Assembly: GCF_009695875.1 (NCBI RefSeq)
Contig: NZ_VUNC01000002.1
Coordinates: 186,001 to 250,000, forward strand
Direction of reading: 5' to 3'
Source of the DNA: Olsenella porci
GTDB taxonomy: Bacteria > Actinomycetota > Coriobacteriia > Coriobacteriales > Atopobiaceae
Length of the DNA stretch: 64,000 bases
Position numbers and translations under genes: made by a program. Shown in pieces: positions 15,289 to 62,533 of the stretch; position 1 is the first letter of the stretch, and every line of letters begins with the position of its first letter. The notes under the pieces were generated by a model that was given only the letters and a program-made list of their open reading frames with translations, ran no database searches and had not been told where the DNA came from.

Positions 15289-17310
15289 CTACGACACGTA
15301 GTCGGACATCTGCGCCTTCTTGGCGGAGCGAATCAGGAACTCCGCGTTGTCGTTGGTCGCTCGCAGGCCCTTGACCAAGGCCGTCGCGGCGCGCTCGGTG
15401 TTGTTCATGTTTGCCAGAACGCGACGGATGCCCCACACGAAAGGCTGCAGCTCCGGGTCGAGGAGGAGCTCCTCGTTGCGCGTTCCGGAAGCGATCGGGT
15501 CGATGGCAGGGTAAATCCTGCGGTCGGCGAGGTCGCGGTCGAGCTTGAGCTCCATGTTGCCCGTGCCCTTGAACTCCTCGAAGATGACCTCGTCCATCTT
15601 GGACCCCGTGTCAACGAGCGCGGACGCCAGGATGGTGAGCGAGCCGCCGCCCTCGATGTTCCTCGCGGCACCCAGGAACTTCTTGGGCGGGTACAACGCC
15701 GCGGAGTCTACGCCGCCGGAGAGGATTCTGCCACTGGCGGGCATCGCAAGGTTGTACGCCCTCGCCAGTCGCGTGATGGAGTCCAGGACCACGACCACGT
15801 CCTCGCCCATCTCCACCAGACGCTTGGCGTGCTCGATCACGAGCTCGGAGACCGCGGTGTGGTTGCTCGCCGGCATGTCGAACGTGGAGGCCACCACGGT
15901 CCCGCGGATGGAGCGCTCCATGTCGGTGACCTCCTCGGGGCGCTCGTCCACGAGCAGGCAGAACAGATGCACCTCGGGGTTGTTGGCAGTGATGGACTGG
16001 CAGATCTTCTTGAGCACGGTCGTCTTGCCCGCCTTGGGGGGTGAAACGATCAGGCCACGCTGGCCCTTGCCGATGGGCGCGACCAGGTCGATGGCACGGC
16101 CGGTGATGGAGTCCCTGCCGTGCTCCATAATCAGGCGCTCGTTGGGGAAGATGGGCGTGAGGTCGCGGAAGCGCGGCCTGCCGCGCATCTCCTCGGGGGG
16201 ACGGCCGTTGATGCTGTCAATGTGGTGCAGCGGTGGGTACTTGCTGTTGTTGCGCGCGGGTGAGACGGAGCCCTTCACCTCGTCGCCCGGACGAAGGCCG
16301 TACTGCCTGATGAGCTGCTGGTGCACGAAGGCGTCGCCATCGCCCGCCATGTAGTTGCCCGTGCGGAGGAAGCCATAGCCCTCGTTCTGCATCTCGAGGA
16401 TGCCCTGCACCGGCCTAAAGCCCTCGGCGAGCGCCGCGGCCTCGTACACCGCCTCAGCCAGGTCCTTCTTGCGCACGCCCACGTAGGGGATGCCCAGGGA
16501 CTGGGCCTTCTCGCGCAGCTCGGCAACCTTCATGAGCGAGACCTCGTCGCGCGTCAGGCTGGGCTCCACCTGCTGTTCCTGGCGGCGGTCCCTGCGGTTG
16601 CGACGGCGATTGGAGTTGCGGCTGCCACCGTTGCCGTAGGTACCGTTGCCGCCGTTGCGTGCGGACTGCTGCCCCTCGTGGCTGCCCTGGCGGTCGTTGC
16701 CCTGCTGACGACCCCTGCGACGGCGCTGCTGGTGATCCTCGCCGTGCCGCTGCTGCTGGTCGCCCTCCTGCTCGCCCGCATCACTTTTGGCGGCATCCGC
16801 CTCGGCAAGCGTTGCCGCGGGGGCGCCCAGCACGCGCTGCCCAGCCTCGTCCTGCGCCTTCGCGGCATCCGTGGGACTGTCGCCCTCCTCGGTTGCCTGC
16901 GGGACGTCGGCAGGTACCTCCTCGGCGGGCTTAACTTTGCGGGGGCGACCACGGCGACGTTTGGGCCTCTCGGCCGCAGGCGCCTCCTCGGTGGAATTCG
17001 AGCCGCCCTCGTTGGCTGCGCGTTCAGCCTTGGGAGTCTCCTCCGAAACTTGGGGCTGAGGTGCCTCGCCCTGCTCGGGGGCATCCTCCGCCACCTTCAC
17101 CTTGCGGGGGCGACCGCGACGGCGCTTGGGCTTCTCCTCCACGGTGGCCTCGGATGCCGTCGCGGGCTGAAGCTGCAGCTCAGCCTGCTCCGGGGTGCCC
17201 TCCTCGCCCTTCTTGGCGGCCGACTTGCGCGTGGTGCGCCTACGACGCGGCTTGGGGGCCTCCTCAGACTGCGTGGGCTCCGAGCTCTCTTCCTGGTTGT
17301 CTTCTGCCAT
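15289..17310 (-). CDS. rho: Transcription termination factor Rho with long N-terminal extension
   Basis: Rho is a hexameric RNA-dependent ATPase that ends transcription. The C-terminal ~420 residues are canonical: an N-terminal SAP-like helical part ('[15 protein letters not shown]'), the cold-shock-like RNA site ('[18 protein letters not shown]'), Walker A '[13 protein letters not shown]' and '[13 protein letters not shown]'. Before this are about 245 extra residues rich in E, A, K and R, including two copies of '[12 protein letters not shown]' (AT-hook-like GRPRK) and a Q/N/G/R-rich stretch; such inserts are known in actinobacterial Rho and may add RNA or DNA contacts. Total 673 residues against about 420 in E. 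coli. ATG at 17310 has AAAGG upstream; a TTG one codon earlier is possible. Confidence 0.97.
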
Positions 17311-23476: not shown

Positions 23477-23552
23477 TGGTGGAGATGAAGGGATTCGAAC
23501 CCTCGGCCTCTGCCTTGCGAAGGCAGCGCTCTCCCAGCTGAGCTACATCCCC
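23477..23552 (-). tRNA. tRNA-Ala (anticodon CGC)
   Basis: On the minus strand a full cloverleaf is seen: acceptor GGGGATG / CATCTCC, D stem GCTC/GAGC, anticodon stem CTGCC/GGCAG with loop TTCGCAA (anticodon CGC, reading GCG), T arm GAGGG-TTCGAAT-CCCTT, discriminator A and an encoded CCA end. Total 76 nt. GCG is likely a common alanine codon in this GC-rich genome. Confidence 0.96.
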
Positions 23553-27527: not shown

Positions 27528-27614
27528 TGGTGCCCCGGGTGGGACTCGAACCCACACTCCGTTGCCGGAAGCGGATTTTGAGTCCGCCGCGTCTGCCAAT
27601 TCCGCCACCAGGGC
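27528..27614 (-). tRNA. tRNA-Leu (anticodon CAA)
   Basis: Class II tRNA on the minus strand: acceptor GCCCTGG / CCGGGGC, anticodon stem GCGGA/TCCGC with loop CTCAAAA (anticodon CAA, reading UUG), a long variable arm (TTCCGGCAACGGAG), T arm GTGGG-TTCGAGT-CCCAC, and encoded CCA. Total 87 nt. TATCAT at 27640-27645 (minus strand) may be its -10. Confidence 0.96.
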
Positions 27615-57029: not shown

Positions 57030-57986
57030 CTACTTGTTGGTTACGTTGCCGTCGGCGTCGCGGGTGACCTTCATGCCGGTGATGGGGATGTAGCCCGTCT
57101 GCTCGACAAGGGATCCCTGGACGTCGTCGGAGAGCATGTAGTCGATGAACGCCTTGGTCGCGTCATCGGGGCTGGTGGAGGTGTACATGTGCTCATAGGC
57201 CCAGATGGTCCAGTCGTTGGTCTCGACGTTCTCCTCCTTGGGCTCGACGCCGCCCACCTTGAGGGCCTTGGTGGTTTCGTCGTAATAGGAGAAGGCAACG
57301 TAGGAGATTGCGCCCTTCGTGGAGGCGACCATCTTGACGACGGTACCCGAGGAGTCCTGCTCCTGGGGCTTGAAGGAGTCGGGAACCTTGGTGTCGCCGA
57401 GGACGGCATCCTCGAAGGTCGCCCTGGTGCCGGAGCCGGAGGCGCGGTTGATCACCGTGATGTCCTCGTCGCTGCCGCCAAGGTCCTTCCAGTTGGTGAC
57501 CTCGCCGGTGAAGATGCTCTTGAGCTGGTCGAGGGTGAGGTCGTCAACCGTGACGTCGGGGTTGACGATGGGGCCCATTCCCACGACGCACACCTGGTTG
57601 TCCTTGAGCTTCTTGGCGTCGTCCGGGTTGTCGAGCTTGGACTCGGCGAACACGTCGGAGTCGCCGATCTGGACGGAGCCCGCAGCGATCTGCGTGATGC
57701 CCTGGCCGGAACCGCCGCCCTGGACGGTCACCTGGACGCCGGGGTTCTTCTCCATGAACTGCTCGGCGGCAGCCTCGACGAGCGGCTGAAGTGCGGTGGA
57801 GCCAACGGCGGTCACGCTGCCGGAGAGGTTTGCGCTTGAGGCGGAGGAGTCAGAGGACGCGCTGGAATCGGTGGATGTAGAGGTGGAGCCGCTCCCGCCG
57901 CATCCAACGAGGCCAAGACCAAGCGTCGAGGCAAGGGTTGCGCCAACCAGGACGAAGCTACGACGTGACATGCTGTGACCAGACAT
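57030..57986 (-). CDS. pstS: Phosphate-binding lipoprotein PstS
   Basis: PstS captures phosphate outside the cell for PstCAB. The 318-residue precursor starts 'MSGHSMSRRSFVLVGATLAS' with a twin-arginine pattern, then lipobox 'LVGC', and a Ser/Thr-rich linker. The mature part 'SGSVTAVGSTALQPLVEAAA', 'VTVQGGGSGQGITQIAAGSV' and 'INRASGSGTRATFEDAVL' holds the phosphate-contact residues. Start at 57986 has AAAGGAG 5 bases upstream; a far longer reading frame exists but lacks support. It is the first gene of the operon and is divergent from a MarR-type regulator. Confidence 0.97.
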   Translation of the reverse strand: MSGHSMSRRSFVLVGATLASTLGLGLVGCGGSGSTSTSTDSSASSDSSASSANLSGSVTAVGSTALQPLVEAAAEQFMEKNPGVQVTVQGGGSGQGITQIAAGSVQIGDSDVFAESKLDNPDDAKKLKDNQVCVVGMGPIVNPDVTVDDLTLDQLKSIFTGEVTNWKDLGGSDEDITVINRASGSGTRATFEDAVLGDTKVPDSFKPQEQDSSGTVVKMVASTKGAISYVAFSYYDETTKALKVGGVEPKEENVETNDWTIWAYEHMYTSTSPDDATKAFIDYMLSDDVQGSLVEQTGYIPITGMKVTRDADGNVTNK

Positions 57987-58180
57987 TGTTCTCCTTTCAG
58001 AGGGTGAAGGGACGCGATTCGTCTTAATTGCACGGCTTATGAGCCACGCCCCTGTGTCAGCATGCAATGTATCCTGCCGTCGCAGGCACATCTGCCCCTT
58101 TGGCCGTCCTTTACCGATGCATGACTGCACCTTACGTTCCCGTGACATTTCTTGGGCAACTCCATGAGGTTTCGACTCCG

Positions 58181-58198
58181 TTGCAAGGGAAGCGTCAA
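58181..58198 (-). promoter_or_regulatory. Candidate direct-repeat site upstream of pstS
   Basis: Minus strand TTGACG (58193-58198) and TTGCAA (58181-58186), 12 bp apart, about 195-210 bp before the pstS start. They resemble repeated hexamers of PhoP-type boxes, or TTGACG may be a -35. Evidence is weak. Confidence 0.25.
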
Positions 58199-58225
58199 CC
58201 CACGCGCATCCAACTATCAATTTCG

Positions 58226-58263
58226 CAAGGTACCTTGACATCTAATTGCTAGGTACCTAATGT
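58226..58263 (+). promoter_or_regulatory. Promoter of the marR-ABC operon with two palindromic operators
   Basis: Perfect -35 TTGACA (58235-58240), 17-bp spacer, -10 TAATGT (58258-58263). Palindrome CAAGGTACCTTG (58226-58237) overlaps the -35 and palindrome TAGGTACCTA (58250-58259) fills the spacer edge and -10. They share the core AGGTACCT, with centres exactly 23 bp apart, as for two dimers of a MarR protein on one face of DNA. Autorepression is inferred. Confidence 0.75.
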
Positions 58264-58301
58264 TTTCCGCGCTATATACGATTGGAAGGGAGGAGGACGA
58301 C

Positions 58302-58793
58302 TTGGACAACGACTCGTCACGCGGGCATCTGCTCGAACGCGAGGCATCCAAGACTGTAGATCAGCGCATTCTCAGCGACCTTGGCTACTTTGGCCACTAC
58401 CTGCACGTAAACGTGGGTGGCAGGGCAGGCAAGCAGAACATTCTCGTGAAGCTCTACCGCGCCGGGGGCACCATATCCCAGCGCTACCTTCAGGAGACGG
58501 TGCCAATAAGCTCGGCGTCGCTGTCGGAGGTGCTCTCTAAGCTCGAGGGCCAAGGCCTGATCAGCAGGGCGAGGTCCGATCAGGATCGGCGACAGCTCAA
58601 CGTCACGCTCACCCCCGAGGGGAAGCAGACGGCAATCGAATGCGCGCGCAGGAAAGAAGCCTTCGAGAGCCGCATGCTCTCGGTCCTCGGCGAGGACGAG
58701 AAGAGGGACCTTGCCCACACCCTCGACCGACTGGTCGAGCACTGGGTGCACATCGAACAGGAGGAGACGGGAGGCAAGAGGTGCAGGAACTGA
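58302..58793 (+). CDS. MarR-family transcriptional regulator
   Basis: A dimeric winged-helix repressor probably controlling its own operon. The 163-residue product has the MarR core: 'KQNILVKLYRAGGTISQRYL', the recognition helix region 'SSASLSEVLSKLEGQGLISR' and the wing 'ARSDQDRRQLNVTLTPEGKQ', with helical ends for dimer formation. The start is TTG at 58302 with GGAGG 5-6 bases upstream; an ATG at 58260 lies inside the -10 box and cannot be used. Its 3' end overlaps the start of the ABC exporter gene by 13 bases. Such regulators next to ABC exporters commonly respond to the drugs or metabolites exported. Confidence 0.9.
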   Translation: MDNDSSRGHLLEREASKTVDQRILSDLGYFGHYLHVNVGGRAGKQNILVKLYRAGGTISQRYLQETVPISSASLSEVLSKLEGQGLISRARSDQDRRQLNVTLTPEGKQTAIECARRKEAFESRMLSVLGEDEKRDLAHTLDRLVEHWVHIEQEETGGKRCRN

Positions 58794-60595
58794 CCTACAG
58801 GCAGATTGTCTCGACCCTGGGCAAGAGCCTCAGGGAGTTCAAGCGGACGTCGCTGCTCACGCCCGTGCTGGTCATTGGCGAGGTGGCGATCGAGTGCATC
58901 ATCCCGTTCATCACCGCGCAGTTCATCGACCAGCTGCAGATGGGCGCGGGGATGGACGTCATCATCCACTACAGCATCATCCTCGTACTGCTTGCGATCG
59001 CCTCGCTCGTCTGCGGGACGCTCGCCGGCATCACCTGCTCGGTGGCGGCGACGGGCTTCGCGCGCAACCTGAGGCACGACCTGTTCGAGACGATCCAGCG
59101 CTTCTCGTTTTCCAACATCGACCGCTTCAGCGTGAGCTCGCTCGTCACCCGCCTCACGACCGACACCAACAACGTTCAGCAGTCGTACATGACCATCATT
59201 CGAACGGCCATCCGCGCCCCGCTGATGATCATCTTCGCCATCGTCATGGCGTTCATAACCGGCGGCTCCATGGGCTTCGTCTATCTCGTCACGTCACTGG
59301 TGCTGGGTTCCGCGCTGTTCTACATCAGCATCAAGGTCATGCCCATGTTCCGTGCGGTCTTCAAGAAGTACGACCGCCTCAACGACACGGTCGAGGAAAA
59401 CGTGGGCGGCATCCGCGTGGTCAAGTCCTTCGTGCGCGAGGACTACGAGAAGGACAAGTTCGACAAGGCCTCGGGGACGCTCTACCACGACTTCGTGCAC
59501 ATCGAGCGCATCCTCGGCCTCAACCTGCCGCTCATGTCCTTCGCCATCGACGTGGTGTACGTGTTCATCGTCTACTTTGGCTCCCAGATGATCGTCACCT
59601 CGCGCGGTGCCCTCATGAACGTCGGTCAGATGTCCGCCCTCATCACCTACAGCTTCGCCATGCTCATGAGCCTCATGATGTTCTCGATGGTGTTCGTGAT
59701 GATCACCATGTCTGAGGAGAGCGCGCGACGCATCTGCGAGGTGCTGGTCGAGACGCCCGACCTCCACAACCCCCAGAACCCCCTCACCACCGTCCCCGAC
59801 GGCTCGGTCGACTTCGACCACGTGAGCTTTGAGTACTCCTCGCACGCAGAGCGCATGGCGCTCAAGGACGTGGACCTGCACATCAAGAGCGGCGAGGTCA
59901 TCGGCATCATCGGTGGCACCGGCTCCTCCAAGTCCACGCTCGTTCAGCTCATCGACCGCCTGTACGACGTCACCGAGGGAAGCGTGAGCGTGGGTGGCCA
60001 CGACGTGCGCGAGTACGACCTCGACACGCTCCGCAACCAGGTGGCGATGGTCCTCCAGCGCAACGTCCTCTTCTCGGGAACCATCAAGGAGAACCTCCGC
60101 TGGGGTAACGAGAACGCGACGGACGAGGAACTCGTGGAGGCGTGCAAGCTGGCGCAGGCGGACGAGTTCATCCAGCTGATGCCCGACAAGTACGACACCT
60201 ATATTGAGCAGGGCGGCACCAACGTCTCGGGTGGCCAGAAGCAGAGGCTCTGCATCGCCCGCGCACTCCTGAAGCGCCCCAAGGTCCTCATCCTGGACGA
60301 CTCCACGAGCGCCGTCGACACCAAGACTGACAAGCTCATCAGGGCGGGCTTCCGCAGCTACATCCCCGAGACCACCAAGATCATCATCGCCCAGCGTACC
60401 AGCTCCATCGAGGACGCGGACCGCATCGTGGTCATGGACGGCGGCGAGATCAGCGCAATCGGGACGCACGACGAGCTCCTTCGCACGAGCGCAATCTACC
60501 GGGAGACCTACATCACCCAGAACAAGCAGTCCCACGACGTCAAGATGGTCCAGATGTCCGGAAACGAAGCAAACAACGGAAGGGAGGGCGAATAG
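58781..60595 (+). CDS. Multidrug-type ABC exporter, half-transporter 1 (degenerate ATP site)
   Basis: A 604-residue half-transporter with six membrane helices (residues ~20-310) and a nucleotide-binding domain (~340-590). Walker A is 'GGTGSSKSTLVQL' (Ser for the usual Gly), signature '[16 protein letters not shown]', and Walker B 'VLILDDSTSAVD' has Asp where the catalytic Glu should be. This is the pattern of the partner with the non-hydrolysing site in heterodimers such as BmrCD/LmrCD. Start is GTG at 58781 with GGGAGG 6 bases upstream, overlapping marR. The second half-transporter follows directly. Confidence 0.93.
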   Translation: MQELTYRQIVSTLGKSLREFKRTSLLTPVLVIGEVAIECIIPFITAQFIDQLQMGAGMDVIIHYSIILVLLAIASLVCGTLAGITCSVAATGFARNLRHDLFETIQRFSFSNIDRFSVSSLVTRLTTDTNNVQQSYMTIIRTAIRAPLMIIFAIVMAFITGGSMGFVYLVTSLVLGSALFYISIKVMPMFRAVFKKYDRLNDTVEENVGGIRVVKSFVREDYEKDKFDKASGTLYHDFVHIERILGLNLPLMSFAIDVVYVFIVYFGSQMIVTSRGALMNVGQMSALITYSFAMLMSLMMFSMVFVMITMSEESARRICEVLVETPDLHNPQNPLTTVPDGSVDFDHVSFEYSSHAERMALKDVDLHIKSGEVIGIIGGTGSSKSTLVQLIDRLYDVTEGSVSVGGHDVREYDLDTLRNQVAMVLQRNVLFSGTIKENLRWGNENATDEELVEACKLAQADEFIQLMPDKYDTYIEQGGTNVSGGQKQRLCIARALLKRPKVLILDDSTSAVDTKTDKLIRAGFRSYIPETTKIIIAQRTSSIEDADRIVVMDGGEISAIGTHDELLRTSAIYRETYITQNKQSHDVKMVQMSGNEANNGREGE

Positions 60596-62533
60596 ATGAG
60601 TAAGGAGACAGAGGAGAGGCGCCCCGGTAGGGACACCCGCGGCAAGGGCCCGGCACACCCCATGGCGGTTCTCAAGAGGACGATCGGCCTCACCTTCGAG
60701 TTCTATCCCGTCATGACCACGGTGATCATCGTCTGCATCGTCGCGGCGGCCATTCTCACGTCGCTGCCCGCGATCTTCATGCAGCAGGCACTCGCCGTCG
60801 TGGCGCGCTACTGGCAATCGGGCAACTGGTCCACGGCGCTGACGGAGATTGCCCCCATCGTGCAGGGGCTGGTCGTCGTGTGCGTGATCGCCGTCGCCGC
60901 CAACGTAGTGCAAGGCCAGCTCACGGCAGTCGTGACCCAGGGCACCCTCATGAAGACCCGCAACAAGATGTTCGGTCACATGGAGGACCTGCCCATCAGG
61001 TACTTTGACACCAACAAGCACGGCGACATCATGTCGTACTACACCAACGACGTCGACTCGCTGAGGCAGCTCATCGGGCAGGCGCTTCCCAACCTGCTCG
61101 CCATGGCAATCCAGATGGCCTCCACCTTCGTGGTCATGCTGTGGTATTCCGTGCCCCTGTCGGCGGTCGTCATGCTCATCGTCTTCTTCATGGCATGGCT
61201 GGTCAGGGTCATCGGCGGCAAGTCCGCCCGCTACTTCCTCGCGCAGCAGGTCGCCCTGGCGCACACCGAGGGCTTTGCGGAGGAGTCCATGTCTGGCCAG
61301 AAGGTCGTCAAGGTCTTCACGCACGAGCGCCAGATGCAGGAGGAGTTCGACCGCGTCAACGAGGAGCTCTTCGAGGCATCCCGCAACGCCAACACGTACG
61401 GCAACATCCTCGGCCCGATCCTCATGAACCTGGGCAACCTCGCCTACGTGGTCATCGCCCTCTGCTGCGGCATCTTCATGCTCTACTCGGTCCCCAACCC
61501 TTCTCTGGGCGGGCTCGCGCTCACCATCGACATCGTGGTGCCGTTCCTGAGCCTCACCAAGCGCTTCGCCGGCTCCATCGGCCAGGTCTCGCAGCAGATC
61601 AACTTCGTGGTCATGGGCCTCGCCGGCGCCGAGCGCATCTTCACGCTGCTTGGCGAGGACGTTGAGCACGACGAGGGGTACGTCACCCTGGTCAACGTGA
61701 GGAAGGGCGCTGACGGCAACATCGAGGAGTGCCCCGAGCGCACCGAGAGCTGGGCGTGGAAGCACCCCCACCACGACGGCACCGTCACCTACACCCCGCT
61801 CGCCGGGGACGTGCGCCTGGTGGACGTCGACTTCTCCTACAACCCCGGCCACACCATCCTGCACGACATCTCGCTGTTCGCGAAGCCTGGCCAGAAGGTG
61901 GCGTTCGTCGGCGCGACGGGCGCGGGCAAGACGACCATCACCAACCTCCTCAACCGCTTCTACGACATCGAGGACGGCAAGATCCGCTACGACGGCATCA
62001 ACATCGAGAAGATCCGCAAGCCAGACCTTCGTCGCTCCCTCGGCATCGTGCTGCAGGACACCAACCTCTTCACCGGCACGGTCATGGACAACATTCGCTA
62101 CGGCCGACTCGACGCGACCGACGAGGAGTGCATCGGCGCCGCGAAGCTCGCGGGCGCGGACAGCTTCATCAGGCGCCTGCCCGACGGCTACCAGACGATG
62201 CTCACCGACAACGCGGCGCAGCTCTCGCAAGGGCAGAGGCAGCTCATCTCCATCGCCCGCGCCGCCGTTGCCGACCCGCCCGTCATGATCCTGGACGAGG
62301 CGACCTCGAGCATCGACACGCGCACCGAGCAGATCGTGCAGAAGGGCATGGACGCCCTCATGTATGGCAGGACCACGTTCGTGATCGCGCACAGGCTCTC
62401 GACCGTGCGCAACGCCAACGTGATCATCGTCCTGGACCACGGCCGCATCATCGAGCGCGGCACGCACGACGAGCTCATCGCCCAGAGGGGCACGTACTAC
62501 CAGCTCTACACGGGAGCGTTCGAGCTCGAGTAG
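60596..62533 (+). CDS. Multidrug-type ABC exporter, half-transporter 2 (catalytic ATP site)
   Basis: The 645-residue partner of the exporter. A polar N-terminus of ~25 residues precedes six membrane helices, and the NBD has Walker A 'GATGAGKTTITNLLNRFYD', signature 'LSQGQRQLISIARAA' and Walker B 'VMILDEATSSIDTRTE' with the catalytic Glu. A ~50-residue insert ('VRKGADGNIEECPERTESW') lies between the membrane domain and the NBD, as known for the BmrD type. The ATG directly follows the stop of half-transporter 1. Together they should form an asymmetric heterodimer exporting hydrophobic compounds. A hairpin follows. Confidence 0.93.
   Translation: MSKETEERRPGRDTRGKGPAHPMAVLKRTIGLTFEFYPVMTTVIIVCIVAAAILTSLPAIFMQQALAVVARYWQSGNWSTALTEIAPIVQGLVVVCVIAVAANVVQGQLTAVVTQGTLMKTRNKMFGHMEDLPIRYFDTNKHGDIMSYYTNDVDSLRQLIGQALPNLLAMAIQMASTFVVMLWYSVPLSAVVMLIVFFMAWLVRVIGGKSARYFLAQQVALAHTEGFAEESMSGQKVVKVFTHERQMQEEFDRVNEELFEASRNANTYGNILGPILMNLGNLAYVVIALCCGIFMLYSVPNPSLGGLALTIDIVVPFLSLTKRFAGSIGQVSQQINFVVMGLAGAERIFTLLGEDVEHDEGYVTLVNVRKGADGNIEECPERTESWAWKHPHHDGTVTYTPLAGDVRLVDVDFSYNPGHTILHDISLFAKPGQKVAFVGATGAGKTTITNLLNRFYDIEDGKIRYDGINIEKIRKPDLRRSLGIVLQDTNLFTGTVMDNIRYGRLDATDEECIGAAKLAGADSFIRRLPDGYQTMLTDNAAQLSQGQRQLISIARAAVADPPVMILDEATSSIDTRTEQIVQKGMDALMYGRTTFVIAHRLSTVRNANVIIVLDHGRIIERGTHDELIAQRGTYYQLYTGAFELE

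Follow-up and report, generated by a model that had tools for sequence, protein, structure and literature searches.

Tandem palindromes fused to the promoter of a marR–ABC exporter operon of Olsenella porci as probable operators of the adjacent MarR regulator

The promoter region of a marR–ABC exporter operon in Olsenella porci contains two matching palindromes, which raises the question of which regulator they serve and how they act on the promoter. The window, meaning the whole stretch of DNA that was analysed, consisted of 64,000 nucleotides. The palindromes are most probably (probability of approximately 0.9) tandem operators of the MarR protein encoded immediately downstream, on which two dimers would occlude the promoter and repress their own operon until released by a ligand. 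The sites are conserved together with the operon and overlap conserved promoter elements.

The palindromes CAAGGTACCTTG (58226–58237) and TAGGTACCTA (58250–58259) share the core AGGTACCT, located at 58228–58235 and 58251–58258, with a centre-to-centre distance of exactly 23 bp. This arrangement had been described in an earlier note made from the sequence alone, and it was borne out by the coordinates. The same note had placed the palindromes across a consensus promoter, TTGACA-17-TAATGT. The -35 element is a perfect consensus and the 17 bp spacer could be confirmed, but the term does not suit the -10 element, which agrees with TATAAT at only three of six bases (T1, A2, and T6). A generic sigma-70 scan, which needs four of six bases, reported no promoter at the palindromes. 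When extended to the full 22 bp operator units O1 and O2, the right arm of O1 includes the -35 element and the right arm of O2 includes the -10 element. The two units are separated by a single base, and the distance between their centres corresponds to about 2.2 turns.

The product of marR matched the Pfam MarR family (PF01047; 5.4e-10, 39.4 bits against a curated cut-off of 24.6) as well as PF12802 (33.9 against a cut-off of 27). Although its AF2 model was built on a shallow alignment of 7 (pLDDT 77.6, pTM 0.61), the best PDB matches of the model were MarR proteins, with the DNA complexes 8ylg (E 8e-8) and 8yli (1e-6) among them. Comparison with named NCBIfam MarR equivalogs (HpaR, BilQ, SlyA, MprA, OhrR, FabT, and MarR) at their curated cut-offs revealed that none of the 14 families listed for the protein reaches its cut-off, the best being HpaR with 44.2 against 121.2. 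The two genes that follow are adjacent and each encode an ABC_membrane and an ABC_tran domain, the composition of a type I ABC exporter pair; the two half-transporters presumably work as a heterodimer. The Pfam run for the first of them began at 58778, one codon ahead of the GTG at 58781 that is the likely start inside the end of marR. The resulting overlap of 58781–58793 with a GTG start suggests translational coupling. Elsewhere in the window, two tRNA genes occur on the minus strand (23480–23552 and 27531–27614), and these were the only Rfam matches at the gathering threshold.

Table 1. Features of the marR–ABC exporter locus, in window coordinates.
Feature	Position	Strand	Basis
pstS (phosphate-binding protein), divergent, outside the system	57030..57986	-	TIGR02136, 6.8e-83
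Operator O1, 22 bp, TTTCGCAAGGTACCTTGACATC	58221..58242	+	Profile score 24.9 bits (training set included this locus)
-35 element TTGACA, common to O1	58235..58240	+	Read from sequence
Operator O2, 22 bp, AATTGCTAGGTACCTAATGTTT	58244..58265	+	Profile score 26.3 bits (training set included this locus)
-10 element TAATGT (TAnnnT), common to O2	58258..58263	+	22/22 loci of the 23-bp layout
Putative Shine-Dalgarno-like AGGGAGGAGG before marR	58287..58296	+	Predicted from sequence
marR, TTG start, 163 aa, winged-helix MarR regulator (P0001)	58302..58793	+	
ABC exporter half-transporter 1 (TM + ATPase)	58781..60595	+	PF00664 + PF00005
ABC exporter half-transporter 2	60596..62533	+	PF00664 + PF00005

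The core AGGTACCT occurs three times in the window, a number that no shuffle out of 100 attained (shuffle mean 0.16). The third copy (16912–16919) scores below the operator threshold, and a scan of the window with the operator profile at 9 bits returned only O1 and O2. Throughout the organism's own genome (2,362,135 bases), the core was counted 37 times and its reversed control word 57 times. The genome scan proposed in the earlier note, for pairs of cores 23 bp apart, revealed exactly one pair in these 2.36 Mb, while simple arithmetic from 37 sites predicts approximately 0.0006 pairs for that exact spacing and approximately 0.03 at any spacing of up to 50 bp. With one mismatch or fewer to TNNYWAGGTACCTWRNNA, only O1 and O2 could be located, and two mismatches added six further places. 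One of these, C1:323378 (L126/L147), was considered as a further target in the same genome; it contains no 14-bit site and was judged a chance occurrence. It lies ahead of a gene that was taken by eye to be rpoB.

The conservation of the sites was evaluated across the family. Relatives of P0001 (E ≤ 1e-8) were present in 124 of 140 family genomes, and the 120 genomes with clearly higher-scoring matches, including that of the window, provided the locus set (L002–L121), the four with weak matches only being excluded. An ABC1 homologue follows marR in 118 of the 120 loci, and in the other two (L013 and L116) the contig ends. Loci at contig ends were retained in the counts, for example L013 and L116 (downstream), L066 (192 bp upstream), and L210. 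Exact copies of AGGTACCT were found in 65 of the 120 upstream regions (300 bp ending near codon 23), compared with five for the next best of the 256 possible 8-bp palindromes and none in the next 300 bp. Refinement into a symmetric profile yielded the 22-bp operator AATYGYTAGGTACCTARCRATT, with a GGTACC core, inner arms of Y-T-A and T-A-R, and AT-rich outer ends. The information per column was 1.23 bits within the site against 0.05 and 0.12 bits in the flanks, as calculated from 104 loci that remained of 115 distinct ones after filtering at 80% identity.

At 9 bits or more, the profile detected a site upstream of marR in 119 of the 120 loci, compared with 0/120 within genes and 0–2 of 120 in five shuffles. 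In each of the 119 the top site reached at least 16 bits; 32 loci had one site at 9 bits, 72 had two, and 15 had three, and at 14 bits at least two sites could be counted in 75. These counts overstate the evidence, since related sequences are not independent, and the loci counted are also those that trained the profile, so that the out-of-sample test described below weighs more. The 120th locus (L032, genome G103) could be resolved. Its marR has no site of its own, but the cluster has the order ABC-ABC-marR-ABC-ABC, and a 24.8-bit site lies ahead of the first ABC gene (L149, position 394). A further genome, G088, contains sites both before marR (L045) and before an extra ABC pair that precedes this gene (L140). 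Judged from these sequences, the operator travels with the marR–ABC cassette when the cluster is rearranged. The assignment of the palindromes to the adjacent MarR, as proposed in the earlier note, was thus supported at the level of the family, with two corrections: the sites were confirmed, but the unit is about 22 bp rather than 8–12 bp; and pairs spaced 23 bp, the key applied to the organism's own genome, are too narrow a key for the family, where only 22 of the 119 loci have this layout.

Alignment of the 119 main sites revealed how closely the operator is fused to the promoter. All six bases of TTGACA are present in 80 of them, five in 13, four in 20, and three in six. Beyond the operator, the only columns with at least 0.4 bits are +28 A and +32 T, which correspond to bases two and six of the -10 element. 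Among the 22 loci of the 23-bp layout, TAnnnT lies exactly 17 bp past the -35 element in every case, and position +9 in the right arm of O2 is T, the T6 of the -10 element, again in 22/22. The left arm of the same 22 sites carries the symmetric A (complemented) in 22/22, and A at +9 is also the usual base in the right arms of the main sites (105/119) and in the arms of all other sites (119/160). The weak -10 element of the earlier note is rescued by this pattern, because the O2 arm loses its symmetry exactly where the -10 element needs T. Thus, the claim that both palindromes overlap the core promoter could be upheld, and the break in symmetry at a -10 base provides good evidence, at the level of sequence, that the operator and promoter functions are both real here. 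In the other layouts the -10 element is harder to make out, and TAnnnT at 17 bp was found in 9 of 41 ‘up’ loci, 5 of 19 ‘down’ loci, and 10 of the remaining 37.

Loci outside the family were scanned with the same profile as an out-of-sample set. In a second family (f10), which is apparently that of Collinsella (Coriobacteriaceae), matches were present in 60 genomes, of which 40 supplied loci (L162–L201; L155 and L156 duplicate L165 and L167 and were counted once). A site of at least 9 bits was present in 39 of the 40 and one of at least 14 bits in 37, compared with 0–1 of 40 in ten shuffles, and CCTTGAC lies within the site in 34 loci. By comparison, only one of 22 paralogous MarR genes (L227) reaches 9 bits upstream; both results lend further support to the operator assignment. 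Four loci of a third family of the order (f2) weigh on the other side, with sites in L204 and L205 and none in L202 and L203. Despite their operator-like sites, no exporter homologue could be found within the fetched stretch of L204 and L205, and the MarR proteins of these two loci contain His-rich stretches. At the class and phylum level, none of the palindromes reported from the seven loci scanned (L252–L258) resembles the operator.

The paralogues have palindromes of their own. Upstream of L221 and L227, paired AACAGGTACCTGTT-like palindromes were observed that differ from the operator, and the palindrome of L207 is CAGGTACCTG; the AACAGGTACCTGTT-like sites of these three loci retain the AGGTACCT core but differ in the bases next to it. 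A sister subfamily of MarR may use them as its operator. A paralogous MarR–ABC locus in the organism's own genome (L122, approximately 724–846, G000:C1) contains three TTGCTAACGACGTTAGCAA-type palindromes, 47 and 49 bp apart. In these the outer arms are the same as in the studied operator and the inner core is different; the paralogous MarR may recognise them as its operator.

The position of the second operator varies among the 119 loci. The 23-bp layout, to which the locus of the window belongs, is spread over eight genus codes. The gaps between successive sites were 15 bp (n = 15), 20–23 bp (68), 39–40 bp (14), 43 bp (3), 55 bp (1), and 58 bp (1). Relative to the copy on the -35 element, the second site lies on the -10 element, mostly 15–36 bp upstream, or 39–43 bp downstream, the last class being past the start. 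When five layout classes were mapped on a tree of ABC1, at least 24 changes were required against a shuffled mean of 63.7; the count is approximate, since the tree was a quick one that took in 116 of the 119 loci and left 44 of its 112 inner branches open. A single operator may be sufficient, since 32 of the 119 loci show only one at 9 bits. A wider reading, to which we would give slightly less than an even chance, is that of a system extending through the order Coriobacteriales, in which one operator is locked in the -35 element, a second has been repeatedly relocated, and arms and core together form a specificity code. The arms and core may be such a code because related MarR genes recombine the same arms or the same core. 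If true, this code would keep paralogous exporter switches apart.

Several other explanations of the palindromes were considered. The comparison is correlative, and a second, more global regulator could be tied to the operon and bind the palindromes in place of the adjacent MarR. Such a regulator would have other targets, yet the organism's own genome has no other place within one mismatch. In a family-wide search the word GGTACCTTGACA was found in 69 of 140 genomes, a count that includes words not scoring as operators; among those away from marR that were fetched from relatives, L132–L139 and L141–L146 contain no 14-bit site, and the exception, L140, belongs to an ABC pair beside the same marR. 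The site is also kept in the rearranged cluster (L149), and a global regulator appears improbable. Service to the divergent pstS is more improbable still. The palindromes do lie within the intergenic region shared with that gene, but only 20 of the 120 fetched stretches (about 1–1.5 kb upstream, less at contig ends) yielded a pstS homologue against 119 of 120 for the operator, and the conserved -35 and -10 elements face marR. Palindromes are common in intergenic DNA, and a chance occurrence or an RNA hairpin or terminator might be suspected on that ground. This is hardly credible for a pair that is single in its genome and conserved across the family; moreover, the palindromes lie upstream of the predicted start, which would place them outside the transcript, and no terminator-like site was found when 57980–58330 was scanned.

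A different possibility accepts binding by MarR and assigns the second palindrome, or the layout, to activation or DNA bending instead of simple occlusion. MarR-family proteins can also activate, so that position alone is no proof of repression; the -10 element of the 23-bp layout is weak, and the wide variation in the position of the second site, with its 24 or more changes on the 116-row tree, could be read in the same direction. Against this, the near-invariant site overlaps the -35 element, a position at which competition between a bound dimer and the polymerase would be expected, and in the window O2 overlaps the -10 element. Activation or bending was consequently regarded as unlikely, if less so than the preceding alternatives.

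Repression by occlusion at tandem operators remains the preferred reading. Each 22-bp site would take one MarR dimer, and adjacent dimers on O1 at the -35 element and O2 at the -10 element would keep RNA polymerase from the core promoter by covering it, because O1 is fused to the one element and O2 to the other with one base between them. Exclusion of the polymerase would silence marR together with both half-transporter genes as a form of negative autoregulation. The operators would be freed of MarR, and the operon turned on, by a ligand that is probably a toxic substrate of the ABC pair, and fresh MarR would reset the switch. Binding by MarR, repression, release by a ligand, and the exported substrate are suggested here by what is known of the family. 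That a genetic switch is real at this locus is well supported by the sequence comparison; its kind would be ordinary, while its conservation is unusual and cleanly legible.

With these sites, a conserved exporter switch of Atopobiaceae, and apparently of Collinsella, has a concrete operator that can be tested. The 119 promoters, with their several layouts and the paralogues with altered sites, can also serve as material on how bases are shared between a repressor site and a promoter, and the same comparative set as material on the gain, loss, or relocation of a second operator. No description of the operator was found in the literature searched, which covered titles and the beginnings of abstracts and lay mostly outside subscription journals, and none of the matches listed there described a MarR operator for Atopobiaceae or Collinsella. 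In a paper on MarR-type regulation, AGGTACCT occurs within a cloning primer for KpnI (PMC12016517); the other titles listed for this word appear unrelated.

Of the known systems compared with the locus, BmrR of Bifidobacterium comes closest. The AF2 model had the DNA complex 4lln of MepR, a MarR regulator of Staphylococcus aureus, among its fold matches. MepR represses itself and controls an exporter, which is a MATE pump, unlike the ABC pair here. MarR operators of the SlyA and AdcR/ZitR types, TTAGCNNGCTAA and TTAACYRGTTAA, are short palindromes with conserved positions about 2–6 from the dyad. Their core differs from the present one and contains no GGTACC. The bmrR gene shares its operon with two half-transporter genes, and LmrR is a member of the PadR family, unlike the MarR protein here. 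In the LmrR–LmrCD system of Lactococcus lactis, the autorepressor of the heterodimeric ABC exporter binds drugs (PMC4534193). BmrR of Bifidobacterium longum BBMN68 is described, in a paper citing Xu et al. 2019, as a MarR regulator connected with an ABC transporter and bile tolerance, with a binding site printed as ATTGTTG-N6-CAACAAT (PMC13118786). Both proteins are MarR regulators tied to an ABC transporter, and the printed site agrees with ATTGYTA-GGTACC-TARCAAT of the present loci in its arm-N6-arm geometry and in most bases of the arms. Unlike in the printed site, the inner six bases are fixed as GGTACC, the arm position adjoining N6 is mostly A (0.75) and never G, and the operator is fused to the -35 element. 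Judged from the printed site, the system may be described as BmrR-like in its working and layout, rather than as a BmrR.
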